This document shows, piece by piece, positions 8,106-32,676 of a stretch of 64,000 nucleotides of DNA (the first letter of the stretch is position 1; each line of letters begins with the position of its first letter). Source of the DNA: Shewanella yunxiaonensis (GTDB lineage: Bacteria; Pseudomonadota; Gammaproteobacteria; Enterobacterales; Shewanellaceae). The translations under genes were made by a program, and so were the position numbers. The notes under the pieces were generated by a model. It did no database searches. It was not told the origin of the DNA and worked only from the letters and a program-made list of their open reading frames with translations. Location of the stretch: positions 2,912,001-2,976,000 of the forward strand of contig NZ_CP073587.1 of assembly GCF_018223345.1 (NCBI RefSeq). The letters are read 5' to 3'.

Positions 8106-8765
8106 ATGACCCTTTTGCAAGCGGCAACGTCTCCCAACCACCATGCGCAGCGTAATGACCTATGGTCAGCGCGTGATGAGGCTTGCCTGCTGCTCAGACG
8201 CCAGATCCGTAAACAGCGCCGCGAACTGTCTGAGGCATTTCAGCAACAAGCCGCTTCCGCTGCGCAAGCGCGACTGGTTGCGCTGTTAGAGCAGTTGCAG
8301 ACGACCGGACAAAAAATCAACACACTATCGCTGTATTTCAGTTGCGATGGTGAACTTAATACCCGCCCATTATTTGAAACTTTATGGCAGCGCGATATCC
8401 AGACCTGTTTGCCCGTATTACACCCCTTCACCCCCGGTAATCTGCTGTTTCTGCATTACCACGCCGATTCACCGATGACGTTTAATCGCTTTGGTATTCC
8501 CGAGCCTAAGCTGGAAACTCGCAGAATTGTACTGCCGGCACAATTGGATCTAATCCTTACACCATTGGTGGCGTTTGACGCTCAAGGTAATCGCATGGGC
8601 ATGGGCGGTGGCTATTATGATCGCACCTTGGCCAATCCGCAGGTAACAGCACTGGCAGTTGGATACGCCCATGACTGTCAACAAGCAGAAAGCCTGCCGT
8701 TAGCCCCATGGGACAAACCGCTCCCGGTCATCATCACGCCTTCCCAAACCCTCGACAATCGCTAG
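8106..8765 (+). CDS. fau: 5-formyltetrahydrofolate cyclo-ligase
   Basis: Converts 5-formyl-THF to 5,10-methenyl-THF with ATP. The catalytic/ATP-binding motif MGMGGGYYDRTL is near residue 165 and the N-terminal basic stretch RRQIRKQRREL is typical. It is 219 aa from the ATG at 8106. A TTG at 8097 is an alternative start, and the GGAG inside the 6S RNA 3' end would be well spaced for it. It is longer at the N-terminus than E. coli Fau (about 182 aa). It sits right behind ssrS and is probably read from the same transcript. Functionally it fits with the nearby one-carbon genes gcvTHP. Confidence 0.92.
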   Translation: MTLLQAATSPNHHAQRNDLWSARDEACLLLRRQIRKQRRELSEAFQQQAASAAQARLVALLEQLQTTGQKINTLSLYFSCDGELNTRPLFETLWQRDIQTCLPVLHPFTPGNLLFLHYHADSPMTFNRFGIPEPKLETRRIVLPAQLDLILTPLVAFDAQGNRMGMGGGYYDRTLANPQVTALAVGYAHDCQQAESLPLAPWDKPLPVIITPSQTLDNR

Positions 8766-8884
8766 TCCACTTTTGATTAATTGCTGAACCGCGTATTTAA
8801 GGATAAGCTGAAAAAGTGTCACAGATCACATTCTTGCCTATTATTTGACTGTGATTAAATCATTAACCAATGGAGAGGTTTTTT

Positions 8885-9412
8885 ATGATCAAAAAAGCAA
8901 TTGTTACCTTCGGTCTGGCATCACTGCTCTGTTCCGCTGCAACGATGGCGGCAGAAGCTGAAGTCAGCGTGTCCCTGCTCTCCGATAAAGGTGATACCCC
9001 CGTAGGTACGGTAACCCTGAGCGACTCTGCATATGGGCTGGTACTGACACCGAATCTGCACGGACTAACACCCGGGGTACATGGTTTCCATATTCATGCC
9101 AACGGCAGCTGTGGCCCGGCAACCAAAGATGGCAAAACTGTCCTGGGTGGCGCGGCTGGCGGTCACTTTGATCCGGATAAAACCGGTAAACATGGCTATC
9201 CATGGACAGACGGCAATCACAAAGGCGATTTACCACCGCTCTTTGTGACCGACGATGGCAATGCAATTGTGCCAGTGCTGGCGCCTCGCTTGAAAGTCGC
9301 CGACGTTAAAGGTCATGCGTTGATGATCCACGCGGGTGGAGACAACTTCTCCGACATGCCGAAAGCGTTGGGTGGCGGCGGGGCTCGTATGGCCTGCGGC
9401 GTAATCGAGTAA
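8885..9412 (+). CDS. sodC: Periplasmic Cu,Zn superoxide dismutase
   Basis: Dismutates superoxide in the periplasm. It is 175 aa from the ATG at 8885, chosen because GGAGAGG stands 6 bp before it; an in-frame ATG at 8870 overlaps that ribosome site. A Sec signal peptide (about residues 1-23) ends MAA-EAE. Metal ligands are visible: H69 and H71 in [11 protein letters not shown]94 in GGHFDP, H103, H112 with D115, and H149. Cysteines C76 and C171 form the conserved disulfide. It stands alone, facing the DUF808 gene, with a shared terminator. Confidence 0.94.
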
Positions 9413-27767: not shown

Positions 27768-29228
27768 CTAACTCAGCTCTCGGGGCGTTGTGCTGTCATC
27801 CAGCCGGGTGGTTGCCGCTGGCAGCGTCGCTTCGTCCACTAGCTCATCAATTATCGGCAAAGTATCGGGGATCTCGCTCATACTCAAATCGACAATCTGC
27901 GACCAATTCATCGTGATTTTAAAACGCGCGTATTGTGGCGGCTGCTTTTCCTTACGGCACACCACGACCAGATTTATCTGATAACGCCGCTCGACCGCTT
28001 CGGACGAAATCGTGCCGTCCTGCTCGGAATAAATCTTATCTTTACCGCGTTCCAGATAGCGGGCAAACGGCACCAGACTGAACACCACCTGCTCTTGTAT
28101 GGTGTTATAACCCGAGAGGAAATCCGTATCTTCCACTTTGGTGCTGATACCATAATGCAGAATTTCTGCTTCGACTTTATTCTGGCTGTGACGTTGCCGC
28201 AAAATCTCTTGTACCGCCTCAGGGAGATCTTTCTGGCGCATAAATTCGAGCCAGACCAGCTGACGTGCAATCAAGTTCTGCGTGGTGGTGTCACGCAAGA
28301 TTCGGCTCCAGCGTGGGCGACCGCGCTGCACATAACGCCACATGGCATTACGAACATCATCCTTGAAAATTTCACGGGCGCCGTAGATTAAGGCCAATAC
28401 CAGTACCATCACCATGGTCACACCGTTAAACACGCCTTGAGCCTTAATAATTAACGATGACACCACCAACATCACCAAGGCAGTTGCCACCCCCGTTGTC
28501 AGCTTCTTCAAGCCAACACCTAAGGGTTTTAACTCCTCTTTAAGCACAACCCCCTGCTGGATTAAGCGTCTGAGCAACAGCATCTTGTTAGCGATGCGGT
28601 TAGGCTCTTTCATGGTTTGTGACGAGTTGTATTTGTGGTTTTCGCGGTGATGTTGCTCCATGTGACACAAAGACAATACCTTGTCACGGATGTGCTGATA
28701 CTGCTCATCTTGGGCAGCATCAGCCAACAGCTTCAGCAATTGCTGCTGGCAAAACCATGACAGATAATTATCCGCATTTTCAAAGTAATGCTTCCATTTC
28801 GTATCCGCCGGAGCATTGCGTCGGAAACGCCGCAGTAAGGTGGCACAATGGACCGTCAGTTCGTTGAGATCCTGATAAAACTGCTGCACATCCTGTTGGC
28901 GAGAAAGCTCTTTAGCATCGTTTTCCATCGCCACCACAAATTGGTAGGCGAACAGATTCATATACAAGCGATATTCTTCCAGCGTGCGCTTTTTCTGACT
29001 GATGAAGCGAGATTGCACCAGCGGCAGATGCAGCCCTTCTGAATAATAGGAGCGTCGTCCTAACACAGCACTGAAGTAATATTCCTCTTCATTCAGACTT
29101 TGCGGGCCAATACCCATCTCTTTGGGCAATGAAAAGTACAGATCAAGCTTACGCCGTTCACCGACCCCTAACAGATGGCTGAATTTGATCGAAAGTTGTT
29201 CTTCCTGCTTGATGCGTAATTTGGACAC
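27768..29228 (-). CDS. Uncharacterised 486-aa membrane protein
   Basis: Not recognised. 486 aa, starting with GTG at 29226-29228. It has a soluble, Gln/Arg-rich N-terminal region (about 1-245), two closely spaced hydrophobic spans (about 248-268 and 272-292, GVATALVMLVVSSLI and VTMVMVLVLALIYGA), then a charged cytoplasmic-type C-terminal half ending in an acidic tail. No catalytic motif was seen. It lies 93 bp downstream of the two ToxR-partner-like genes on the same strand, so co-transcription is possible. It is convergent with the PAS/GGDEF gene (26 bp gap, no terminator seen). Confidence 0.7.
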   Translation of the reverse strand: MSKLRIKQEEQLSIKFSHLLGVGERRKLDLYFSLPKEMGIGPQSLNEEEYYFSAVLGRRSYYSEGLHLPLVQSRFISQKKRTLEEYRLYMNLFAYQFVVAMENDAKELSRQQDVQQFYQDLNELTVHCATLLRRFRRNAPADTKWKHYFENADNYLSWFCQQQLLKLLADAAQDEQYQHIRDKVLSLCHMEQHHRENHKYNSSQTMKEPNRIANKMLLLRRLIQQGVVLKEELKPLGVGLKKLTTGVATALVMLVVSSLIIKAQGVFNGVTMVMVLVLALIYGAREIFKDDVRNAMWRYVQRGRPRWSRILRDTTTQNLIARQLVWLEFMRQKDLPEAVQEILRQRHSQNKVEAEILHYGISTKVEDTDFLSGYNTIQEQVVFSLVPFARYLERGKDKIYSEQDGTISSEAVERRYQINLVVVCRKEKQPPQYARFKITMNWSQIVDLSMSEIPDTLPIIDELVDEATLPAATTRLDDSTTPRELS

Positions 29229-29321: not shown

Positions 29322-29822
29322 TCATTGTTGCAGGCGACAAGCGTAAACCCCATTACCGGGCTGAACTCTGATGGCGGCAAAATGCTGCTTATCGTCTGCA
29401 TCCAGCACTTCTAAGGTCATCTTGTGGACTGCGTGCTTTTTAAGATTAACATCGGTGATATATGACAGGAATCGCATGTGCTCCGGAGTCGGTCCGTCAC
29501 CCTGCTGTTCTTGTTTGTCATTGACCGCTATCTGGTAGTTCACCCCGGCGGCACCTCTGGTAATCTGTCCGCGTAGCAGGACACTGCCAGCAGGTGAACC
29601 ATTGGTGTTGAAGTAGCGATAGTTGATCAGCGCATCGTGCCCAGTTGCCTGTAAATCTAACAACAGAAAATATTTACTCTGTTGTTGCTCATCATGGTCA
29701 TAAAGTTCAGAACTGCAATTGAGCAGTAATTGTCGCGCTTTATGTTGGCCACTATAAAAGCCGTTAGCGACGGCAACTAATGCTATTAACGCCAGCAGCA
29801 GCCAAGGCCAGGCTTTAGTCAC
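29322..29822 (-). CDS. Small single-pass protein, second partner of the ToxR-like regulator
   Basis: 166 aa from a GTG at 29820-29822, chosen because it overlaps the upstream stop (GTGACTAA) behind GAAGAGG, as in coupled genes; a longer version would start at 29876. One N-terminal membrane span (residues 5-22, WPWLLLALIALVAVANGFY), then a periplasmic domain of about 140 residues with two cysteines (LLNCSSEL and VYACRLQQ at the very end) that could form a disulfide. No family recognised. Its place as last of the trio wHTH-TM / TM-periplasmic / TM-periplasmic suggests a ToxS- or TcpH-like role (inference). Confidence 0.65.
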   Translation of the reverse strand: MTKAWPWLLLALIALVAVANGFYSGQHKARQLLLNCSSELYDHDEQQQSKYFLLLDLQATGHDALINYRYFNTNGSPAGSVLLRGQITRGAAGVNYQIAVNDKQEQQGDGPTPEHMRFLSYITDVNLKKHAVHKMTLEVLDADDKQHFAAIRVQPGNGVYACRLQQ

Positions 29823-30309
29823 AGAGATGAACCTCTTCAAGCCACTGTTGATTGATAAATCCCATCTGCCGGCCACTATCTCCGGCTTTGATGTTGCGTA
29901 ATATCAACCGACCATTACGTTCCCCTTTGAGGGTAATGTTCAATATCTTCTTTTCCAGCGATATTGACAGGTAAACCTGTTCCCATGACGATTTATGGCA
30001 CTGCATCAGCGCTGCTGAAACCGTATCAGCAGCCGACTGCAACAGGTGGTTATTCACTCTGGAATCGGCAAACTGCAACAGCATAATCGATTGTCCGGAC
30101 GTCAGGGTTACAGTCTGCTGAGCCAACGGCAAGACCGCATCGCTCACCGGAAACTTCTTGATGAAATAGACACTAATACTGAGCATCAGCAACAGCAACA
30201 CAACCACCATCACCAAACGTGGTGCCGGATTGATTTGCTCGCGCAGCATATATTTGTTCGGCTGCGACTGTGACAGTGAATTAAGCATAAATTTCTGATT
30301 CGTTTCCAT
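29815..30309 (-). CDS. Small single-pass protein, first partner of the ToxR-like regulator
   Basis: 164 aa if started at the ATG at 30307-30309; other in-frame ATGs at 30357 and 30288 cannot be excluded because none has a good ribosome site. One membrane span (RLVMVVVLLLLMLSISVYFI, roughly residues 31-50) with a short cytoplasmic tail, then a periplasmic domain with cysteines in LMQCHKSSW and at the end (VHLCD). A TATACT -10-like hexamer at 30366-30371 supports a separate promoter inside the gap behind the regulator. Not recognised as a known family. Confidence 0.62.
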   Translation of the reverse strand: METNQKFMLNSLSQSQPNKYMLREQINPAPRLVMVVVLLLLMLSISVYFIKKFPVSDAVLPLAQQTVTLTSGQSIMLLQFADSRVNNHLLQSAADTVSAALMQCHKSSWEQVYLSISLEKKILNITLKGERNGRLILRNIKAGDSGRQMGFINQQWLEEVHLCD

Positions 30310-30374
30310 TAGCAACACAATGTTCTGGCAAAGGCACCCGATAAAGGTTTTTGCCATTGGCGATCAGTATAGGC

Positions 30375-30450
30375 AGTGATAACTACTGGTACTGTGATCG
30401 TCGTAACCTCAAATGATGGATTTTAGTGATCAATTTGCGAAATAGTGATC
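30375..30450. promoter_or_regulatory. Four AGTGAT/TGTGATC boxes upstream of the partner genes
   Basis: Repeats at 30375-30380, 30393-30399, 30425-30431 and 30444-30450. They form two pairs with 18-19 bp between members, and each pair is repeated 50-51 bp away, all in the same orientation. They sit between the ToxR-like gene and its partner genes. A candidate operator for the winged-helix regulator; TGTGA is also a CRP half-site, so CRP is the alternative. Confidence 0.45.
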
Positions 30451-30525
30451 CACGCCAAAGCTTGGAAATTTATGTTGACTGGCACTAGCTTTAGCAGAAG
30501 TTGTGAGCCTCGAGACGCGCTGAAT

Positions 30526-31059
30526 TTATTGATTTAGCGCTGATAATAAGTGGCATTGATGATCGCTATGTGCAAATAACGGCAGCATGGCGTCCTGCAA
30601 CTCAGTGCCGGAATACAGCCATAACGCAGAAGTCTGCGGCCACCATAATGGCAATTGCACCGGCAACTGATGCCAAAGCATCGTGACTGCCAGCAAAGTG
30701 ACCAAAATGATAGTGCAGTAATGATTCCAAGAAATGGGTAACCCACCAAACCAGCTAGCACGAAGCTGAGTCTTGACATGTTGATGCAAAATAAATCCTT
30801 CACTCGCGACCTTTTGCAGCAACACCCCACGGACATCATCCAGCTTTTGTTGCAAGCGTTGGATACTGCGATCCAGCAGCTGCTCATTAGGATGCCCCAG
30901 TATTTGCAACAACTGAAACCTGGACACGACTTTATCCCGTTGCTGGATCAGTTCAGCCAAAATACGCCGTTCAGCAACACTCAGCCGTTTATGAACATCC
31001 CCTACTAATGCCTGCAGTTCACCTAATTGTGCCGAGTACCAATAATTACCGAGTTGCAT
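30526..31059 (-). CDS. ToxR-like membrane-anchored winged-helix transcription regulator
   Basis: 177 aa. The N-terminal 100 residues form an OmpR/PhoB-type winged helix (LSVAERRILAELIQQRDKVVSRFQLLQILG, then LLDRSIQRLQQKLDD as recognition helix and VASEGFILH as wing). One membrane span follows (about 112-131, YCTIILVTLLAVTMLWHQL), then a short periplasmic tail of about 45 residues with one cysteine (HQCHLL). This is the ToxR/CadC/TcpP layout, so it would bind DNA from the membrane and respond to periplasmic signals. AGGTG precedes the ATG. It lies downstream of nhaD, with two single-pass genes behind it. Signal and targets unknown. Confidence 0.8.
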   Translation of the reverse strand: MQLGNYWYSAQLGELQALVGDVHKRLSVAERRILAELIQQRDKVVSRFQLLQILGHPNEQLLDRSIQRLQQKLDDVRGVLLQKVASEGFILHQHVKTQLRASWFGGLPISWNHYCTIILVTLLAVTMLWHQLPVQLPLWWPQTSALWLYSGTELQDAMLPLFAHSDHQCHLLSALNQ

Positions 31060-31221
31060 AAATCACCTGCCAATATCATTGCAGTGATTATAAAGAGCAA
31101 CGGCGCCGAAACTGAGAGATCCAGCACGGCGCCGCAGACTTTGACTGAGAAGCGTGATCCTCTTCTCAGGCTTTCGAGCAGTATGAAATACTGTCGAAAT
31201 ATTTTTCAAACAATTAGTTAA

Positions 31222-32676
31222 CTAAAACAAACCACTGTTGAGCAGGCGATGCACCACGATACTGGCGATATAGCCTAAAGCAATGGCTGGGGTCCAACGC
31301 AGATGCGAACCAAAGGTATAAATACCGCGCGCTTGTCCCATCAAGGCCACGCCAGCAGCACTACCGATAGATAACAAACTACCACCAACACCGGCGGTCA
31401 TGGTGACCAGCAACCATTGGCCGACTGACATATCCGGGTTCATGGTCAATACCGCAAACATCACAGGAATGTTATCTACCACAGAAGACAGCACACCAAT
31501 AGCGACGTTGGCATAAGTTGGGTTCCAGTGGCCATACAGAGTCTCAGAAACGCTTGCTAGATAACCGATAAAGCCCAGACCGCCCACACACATGATCACA
31601 CCATAGAAGAACAGTAAAGTGTCCCACTCGGCGCGAGCAATACGGGAAAACACATCAAATGGCACCAGTTCACCGACATTTGCCAGACGCTTGGTATCAT
31701 GTTCAGCTTCCGCTTCTTTACGAATGCGTGCGACAGCCTTATCGAAGTTACGACGCAGATAGAAGCCAAAGCACTGTAACAGCCCCAGACCTGTCATCAT
31801 ACCGAGAACTGGTGGCATCCCCATGAAGGAGTGAGCACACACCGCCAAGAAGATAGTAAACAGGAACAACAGCACAATGCGGCGAGCACCGGGTTTCATG
31901 TGTACTTTTTCAACCACTACATCGCTGGTATGGTTAGAAATAAAGAAGCTCATGATCGCTGCAGGTACAACGAAGTTAACCAACGCCGGAATAAACAGAT
32001 CGAAGAACTGAGAAAACTGTACAACCCCTTTCTGCCAAACCATCAGCGTGGTGATATCACCGAATGGACTAAATGCACCGCCGGCGTTAGCACCAACGAC
32101 AATGTTGATACAGGCGACGGTGATAAAGCGCTTATCATCACCCGCCATTTTCATTACCACAGCACACATCAGCAATGCAGTGGTCAGGTTGTCAGCAATA
32201 GGTGAAATGAAGAATGCCAGGAATCCAGTGATCCAGAACACCTGTCTTAGCGTAAAACCTTTGCTCACCATCCAGGCGCGCAAACCATCGAACAATCGCC
32301 GTTCTTCCATAGCGTTGATATAGGTCATCGCCGCCAATAAGAACAGGAATAGCTCGGCATATTCCATCAAATCATCTCTGAACGCGGTTTCTGCAATATC
32401 AGGCATACCGTGTTGAGTATAGATAAAACCGATCACACCCCAGATCAAACCCGCCGCCACAATCACTGGCTTGGATTTTCTGATGTGTAATTTTTCCTCC
32501 ATCATGACCATCAGATAAGCGAGGACAAACATCGCGATCGCGAAATAGCCTACGCCGGAGTGGGTCAGTGATAACTGTGCCTCAGCTTCAGTACCTGCCA
32601 AAACGGCGGGAGAAACCATGGCCAGCAAGCACGCCAGAACGACTGCAGGTCCTCGGTACATATGCTTCAACTTCAT
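31222..32676 (-). CDS. nhaD: Na+/H+ antiporter NhaD
   Basis: Sodium:proton antiporter of the IT superfamily, common in marine and halophilic bacteria. It is 484 aa with about 12 hydrophobic spans and a cleavable-looking N-terminus (VVLACLLAMVSPAVLAG). Conserved pieces include SPIADNLTTALLMC, NIVVGANAGGAFSPFGDITTLMVW and SVVDNIPVMFAVLTMNPDM, where buried Asp and Thr residues typical of NhaD lie. GAGAG stands 7 bp before the ATG (32674-32676). The 224-bp gap to the DUF481 gene holds a terminator, a CRP-like site and a structured-looking leader. Expected to export Na+ or Li+ at alkaline pH. Confidence 0.92.
   Translation of the reverse strand: MKLKHMYRGPAVVLACLLAMVSPAVLAGTEAEAQLSLTHSGVGYFAIAMFVLAYLMVMMEEKLHIRKSKPVIVAAGLIWGVIGFIYTQHGMPDIAETAFRDDLMEYAELFLFLLAAMTYINAMEERRLFDGLRAWMVSKGFTLRQVFWITGFLAFFISPIADNLTTALLMCAVVMKMAGDDKRFITVACINIVVGANAGGAFSPFGDITTLMVWQKGVVQFSQFFDLFIPALVNFVVPAAIMSFFISNHTSDVVVEKVHMKPGARRIVLLFLFTIFLAVCAHSFMGMPPVLGMMTGLGLLQCFGFYLRRNFDKAVARIRKEAEAEHDTKRLANVGELVPFDVFSRIARAEWDTLLFFYGVIMCVGGLGFIGYLASVSETLYGHWNPTYANVAIGVLSSVVDNIPVMFAVLTMNPDMSVGQWLLVTMTAGVGGSLLSIGSAAGVALMGQARGIYTFGSHLRWTPAIALGYIASIVVHRLLNSGLF

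Follow-up and report, generated by a model that had tools for sequence, protein, structure and literature searches.

Behind nhaD (31222-32676) in the window, by which we mean the whole 64,000-nucleotide stretch of DNA analysed, lie three minus-strand open reading frames (P1, P2 and P3) that raise the question of whether a membrane-anchored transcription factor can be served by a sensor on a different polypeptide. The way in which ToxR- and VtrA-type receptors relay a periplasmic signal to DNA along a single membrane helix is a standing question, and sensor and DNA-binding halves that occur naturally as separate chains could each be deleted, tagged or mutated alone, which would show whether covalent linkage is needed. 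The original prediction read the cluster as a ToxR-like regulator with two single-pass partner proteins. All three genes are present where it placed them, with coordinates confirmed from the open reading frames:

30526-31059, minus strand: P1, 177 aa, derived from the regulator RegA; winged-helix DNA-binding domain at residues 1 to about 98 (Pfam Trans_reg_C), membrane span at about residues 113-134, and a vestigial, unconserved periplasmic tail at about residues 141-177
29815-30288, minus strand: P2, sensor half derived from the regulator RegB, 157 aa from start 30288; span at residues 21-45 and a periplasmic alpha-beta domain, DNA-binding domain absent
29322-29822, minus strand: P3 (ParB), partner in the ToxS/VtrC position, 166 aa from GTG 29822; membrane span and a predicted lipocalin-like beta-barrel
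27768-29228, minus strand: downstream gene with no family match, syntenic with RegA or ParB

P1 matches Trans_reg_C at 28.5 bits (cut-off 26.2) and has a single hydrophobic stretch near residues 116-134, as had been proposed, and the single spans of P2 and P3 are likewise borne out by prediction. The listed frames of P2 and P3 are longer (29815-30357 and 29322-29876, respectively); with P3 beginning at GTG 29822, the reported 8-bp overlap of the last two genes is reproduced exactly. Cysteines were claimed for every periplasmic part and are found in all three proteins (C115 and C169 in P1, C97 and C156 in P2, C36 and C162 in P3). The P2 pair is invariant in a family alignment of 54 sequences and the P3 pair invariant or nearly so in the family alignment, but the P1 tail cysteine is not selected for, as shown by a frameshift that disrupts the tail in both closest relatives.

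Pfam and NCBIfam searches with P2 and P3 gave nothing useful; a CBM-like Pfam match of P3 (15.9 bits, under the cut-off) and a PptA match of P2 were disregarded, and a PDB sequence search with P1 returned chance armadillo-type matches only. Searching the genus with P2 gave matches in the C-terminal half of proteins of 250-290 aa, with P2 homologous to residues about 93-248 of full-length RegB, and about 50 congeners encode full-length ToxR-type regulators with this membrane-and-periplasmic half. This homology rules out P2 as a novel partner family, so the description of both small proteins as partners of unfamiliar sequence fails: P2 is a regulator's own sensor half, and of the two P3 is the partner. 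A single ToxR-type regulator, P1, with two dedicated partners would account for the gene order, the one span per protein and the cysteines, but it conflicts with the origin of P2 and with the lack of conservation in the P1 periplasmic tail, where partners would bind, and we consider it very improbable. The locus instead encodes a two-protein sensor and a sensorless DNA-binding protein. Scanning genome contigs with single proteins found no match; an alignment-based scan recovered 64 loci, every one in Shewanella.

Structure prediction is consistent with these assignments. The P3 model (pLDDT 89) matched VtrC with Z-scores of 13.2, 13.1 and 12.7 (the best over 118 residues) and ToxS with 10.4 and 9.4, the next unrelated fold scoring 8.4, and the top five Foldseek matches were all VtrC. 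P3 is thus predicted to be a ToxS/VtrC-position partner with a lipocalin-like periplasmic barrel; this part of the proposed likeness to ToxR/ToxS stands, as does the common ancestry, whereas the scheme of one regulator with two partners does not. The periplasmic part of the P2 model (pLDDT 86.6) matched VtrA best (Z 8.2 over 85 residues, and 7.7), with ToxR at 6.6 and 6.4 and unrelated ribosomal hibernation factors at up to 6.6, and Foldseek gave no significant match. Weak when taken alone, a VtrA/ToxR-like fold for P2 becomes credible together with the P3 match, the gene order and the homology to whole regulators.

At the loci of relatives, RegB is an ordinary ToxR-type regulator followed by its P3-like partner ParB, and in many species a second pair, RegA/ParA, lies upstream. 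The ancestral order read from these loci is DUF481, NhaD, RegA, ParA, a divergent split-Soret cytochrome c gene, RegB, ParB and, last, a conserved gene without a family assignment. The window and genomes G036 and G054 all lack the cytochrome ortholog, ParA, the RegA periplasmic domain and the RegB winged helix. A tree of the winged helix and span places P1 inside RegA (support 100/99), and a tree of the span and periplasmic domain makes the five P2 proteins without a winged helix (from the window, G036, G054, G126 and G106) monophyletic at 95/92; both are single-gene trees with few columns and long branches, so their deeper joins are unsure. Since the five form one clade, the P2 winged helix was probably lost once. 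We are highly confident of the domain anatomy, namely that the output half of RegA survives as P1, the sensor half of RegB as P2, and ParB as P3. A single deletion fusing RegA to RegB was considered and rejected, because the truncated P2 is shared by G126 (S. mangrovi) and G106, which retain the cytochrome gene and an inverted full-length RegB/ParB pair alongside P2/P3, with RegA missing. In S. mangrovi, the translation of a stretch between the cytochrome gene and P2 (locus L043, about 8287-8900) starts like a lipoprotein (MNKLALSLLLGTALVSGCGGDS); we presume that it may be the remnant of a multihaem cytochrome gene.

Salt and pH had been suggested as signals from the position behind nhaD. That link is unspecific, because RegA persists next to DUF481 in species where nhaD is absent there, and the guess is a weak one. 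Periplasmic redox, the other signal suggested, is neither favoured nor disfavoured by the results. RegB/ParB are tied instead to the split-Soret cytochrome gene that the window clade has lost: P3-type partners occur in 109 of 129 genus genomes, of which 99 also have the cytochrome ortholog, and all 20 genomes without a partner lack it (raw counts, uncorrected for phylogeny). The window's genome, G036 and G054 have only a 43-44% paralogue elsewhere; in the window's genome this distant split-Soret paralogue (43%) is at G000:C1:2432310-2433170, and the copy at the locus is gone. The MR-1 split-Soret gene is SO0939 (PMC3623810), SO_4142 having proved a wrong lead, and our search of the literature on SO0939 found nothing on its regulation.

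Reciprocal loss on this scale could reflect decay. Reading the cluster as a dying relic of deletions would explain the missing parts of RegA, RegB, ParA and the cytochrome and the frameshifts in the P1 tail of relatives, but in P1 residues 1-140, P2 and P3 alike pN is much lower than pS, and the P2 start and promoter block are conserved across three species; the selection data led us to reject this reading, to which we give almost no credence. Omega is about 0.11-0.12 for P1 residues 1-98 where dS is measurable (G054-G036 and window-G054), about 0.05-0.15 for P2 from codon 24 of its long frame and about 0.07 for P3, values that are rough because dS is near saturation in several comparisons. 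P1 without its tail, P2 and P3 are thus under purifying selection. Constraint on P1 extends to residue 140 and ends with the tail from about residue 141, which a frameshift makes unalignable between species. The evolutionary rate of P1 exceeds that of P2, especially in the lineage of the window. In the long P2 frame, codons 1-23 are neutral (omega about 0.8-1.1) and constraint sets in after them, so 30288 and not 30357 is most likely the true start; P2 of S. mangrovi begins at the equivalent methionine.

The promoters carry a shared element, GATCAC, placed as follows:

31087-31121, minus strand: P1 promoter, with GATCTC at 31116-31121 and -10 TATAAT at 31087-31092
30445-30450, minus strand: upstream GATCAC (GGATCACTATTT), conserved in all five P2 promoters
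30426-30431, minus strand: third GATCAC, in the window genome only (the two closest relatives have GATCTG and GCTCTA here)
30366-30399, minus strand: P2 promoter core, with GATCAC at 30394-30399, 22 bp, and -10 TATACT at 30366-30371

GATCAC occurs in 64 of 75 RegB upstream regions (3.3 expected), mostly near -65, in 22 of 33 RegA upstream regions (1.3 expected) and in all five P2 promoters, counts that are not independent because the set contains close relatives. It was found upstream of none of 44 genes for the downstream protein, none of 37 DUF481 genes and none of 25 radical-SAM genes, and a regulon search before nhaD, DUF481, the downstream gene and the cytochrome gene gave no clear enrichment. 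The element precedes the -10 hexamer by about 28-29 bp, and the combined pattern is present at three places in the genome. In the P1 promoter, GATCTC is replaced by GATCAC in G054 and GATCGC in G036, at the same spacing to the -10 hexamer as in the P2 promoter. Where a full-length RegB promoter has two GATCAC copies, their site-to-site spacing is 39-40 bp; it is 51 bp in the window clade and 61 bp in G126 and G106. These spacings change in near-whole helical turns, which suggests helical phasing.

The RegB promoter was therefore retained through the loss of the RegB winged helix, and its sites now require another reader. The genome encodes 14 PF00486 proteins, 13 of them receiver-domain response regulators and the other P1; as the only one that is not a response regulator, P1 is the natural candidate for this role. 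Each of P2 and P3 has one copy in the genome. CRP could be a rival reader: GATCACA is a CRP right half-site, and TCAC precedes the -10 hexamer by about 26 bp, matching the CRP class II position (about -41.5). In every promoter inspected, the left half of the palindrome TGTGA-N6-TCACA retains 0-3 of the five bases of TGTGA. CRP does act through a degenerate site upstream of the ToxR-family gene sirR (PMC6976685). Likened by its description, the product SirR (SO_0490) of Shewanella oneidensis is a ToxR-family activator with an upstream TCACA half-site; unlike the split P1/P2/P3, it is reported to be a single, CRP-controlled activator of sulfite respiration (PMC6976685).

The GATCAC-like site before P1 or RegA also sits between the arms of an inverted repeat (window 31100-31135; L045 and L047), and the arms differ by clade: GGCGCCG/CGGCGCC in the window and, in S. 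indica, ACACCCAT/ATGGGTGT followed by a run of T. This repeat possibly doubles as the nhaD terminator.

Because two neighbouring regulators lost opposite halves, we propose, with somewhat better than even confidence, that the locus encodes a split co-component regulator in which P2 and P3 sense and drive P1 in trans. P1 is a winged-helix protein with a membrane anchor and a decayed sensor domain, and P2 and P3 would form a periplasmic receptor that works through the membrane spans or the short P1 tail to alter how P1 oligomerizes or how active it is; P1 would then act at the GATCAC sites of the P2-P3 promoter and probably at its own promoter. The sensor must probably signal across the membrane to a DNA-binding protein of different regulator descent, and we infer contact between P1 and P2, the direction of signalling, P1 binding to GATCAC and a ligand. 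A fuller version, with halves from two paralogous regulators and the receptor without a winged helix and its lipocalin partner controlling sensorless P1 through membrane-helix contacts, falls a little short of an even chance. Oligomerization is how known receptors of this kind act; VtrA requires both its membrane span and the C-terminal domain (PMC5693285). P1 resembles a VtrA from which the periplasmic domain has been cut.

The gene content of G126 and G106 counts against the split regulator: both have P2/P3 without RegA and beside full-length RegB, so a RegA-type protein is not a necessary partner for P2/P3. The faster evolution of P1, CRP as a possible reader of GATCAC, the narrow margin of the P2 fold match over ribosomal hibernation factors and the near-saturated dS values weigh on the same side. 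P2 is also not the sole sensor in these genomes, because the complete RegB/ParB pair can sense for itself. In the main rival explanation, P2/P3 are a modulator rather than an input, restraining or stabilizing a winged-helix-bearing protein like a natural dominant-negative; in the window clade this protein would be P1, and in G126 and G106 the copy of full-length RegB. We consider this reading rather unlikely. It fits those two genomes at least as well as the split regulator does, and P2 is very strongly conserved there: between them, dN is 0.042 for the truncated P2, against 0.173 for the corresponding sensor half of full-length RegB, so the truncated form is the better conserved. However, no full-length relative that could be restrained survives in the window clade, and P1 itself lacks a sensor domain.

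A further alternative is that P1 works alone, as a sensorless activator set by its abundance in the manner of VtrB, with P2/P3 in an unrelated role such as ligand binding or guarding another membrane protein. VtrB is an earlier example of a winged-helix membrane protein that acts downstream of a receptor pair (PMC4933562), and in other Shewanella a short sensorless RegA beside full-length RegB is constrained up to its span (omega about 0.07-0.17 where measurable). We judge this unlikely, though, as P2 retains the RegB promoter and its sites, a position directly after P1 and the overlap with P3, and VtrA lacking its periplasmic domain is found in the membrane and does not respond to bile (PMC5693285).

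The split regulator descends from, and would work like, the ToxR/ToxS and VtrA/VtrC co-component systems (PMC9214523) without their defining one-chain architecture: relatives' RegA and RegB join winged helix, span and periplasmic domain on one chain, and neither P1 nor P2 does. VtrA/VtrC of Vibrio parahaemolyticus (PMC9214523, PMC4933562) is the closest comparison by predicted fold, VtrC being the best match of the P3 model and VtrA that of the P2 periplasmic model, and the two genes overlap as those of P2 and P3 do; VtrA, however, carries a winged helix with its sensor domain, and P2 has two invariant cysteines, unlike VtrA. ToxR/ToxS of Vibrio shares the architecture of full-length RegA and RegB and has conserved periplasmic cysteines, ToxS matching P3 and the ToxR periplasmic domain, weakly, P2, whose C156 corresponds to the cysteine that ToxR-type regulators conserve towards the C-terminal end of this domain; in the window, the DNA-binding and sensor halves are separate proteins of different ancestry. 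The likeness of P1 to V. parahaemolyticus VtrB is one of placement beside a VtrA/VtrC-type receptor, and P1 is sensorless, with a winged helix, a terminal membrane helix and a tail that after residue 140 is unconserved and frameshifted. VtrB is switched on transcriptionally by VtrA through the latter's own winged helix; lacking one, P2 cannot itself drive such a cascade. Among open-licence PMC papers, we found no description of a receptor without a winged helix paired with a sensorless regulator. The locus also shows that reciprocal domain loss can rewire fast-evolving two-gene cassettes, a change that annotation relying on domains alone would miss.

The downstream gene (27768-29228) encodes a protein of 486 aa with two hydrophobic stretches that matched no Pfam or NCBIfam family. 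Its synteny is held in nearly every congener read, and it is a possible member of the P2-P3 operon.

Other Shewanella loci show further variants. RegA proteins of 134-166 aa that end at or soon after the span stand beside full-length RegB in L049, L050, L051 and L052-L056, and sensorless regulators probably arose more than once in the genus. In G108 (L059, 4986-5748), a short RegA is followed by a ParA fragment without RegB or the cytochrome gene, apparently a pair in decay; with this case at hand, we do not tie short RegA to the presence of RegB. A third regulator/partner family (MRLKxFEFD...) is found in L063-L078 (for example L068, L071 and L074), without a GATCAC site near the start, and in several species it lies beside a split-Soret gene. 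In L005, L016, L079 and L080, the RegB/ParB/cytochrome block adjoins, instead of nhaD, an acetate-transporter-like gene that we take to be SatP.
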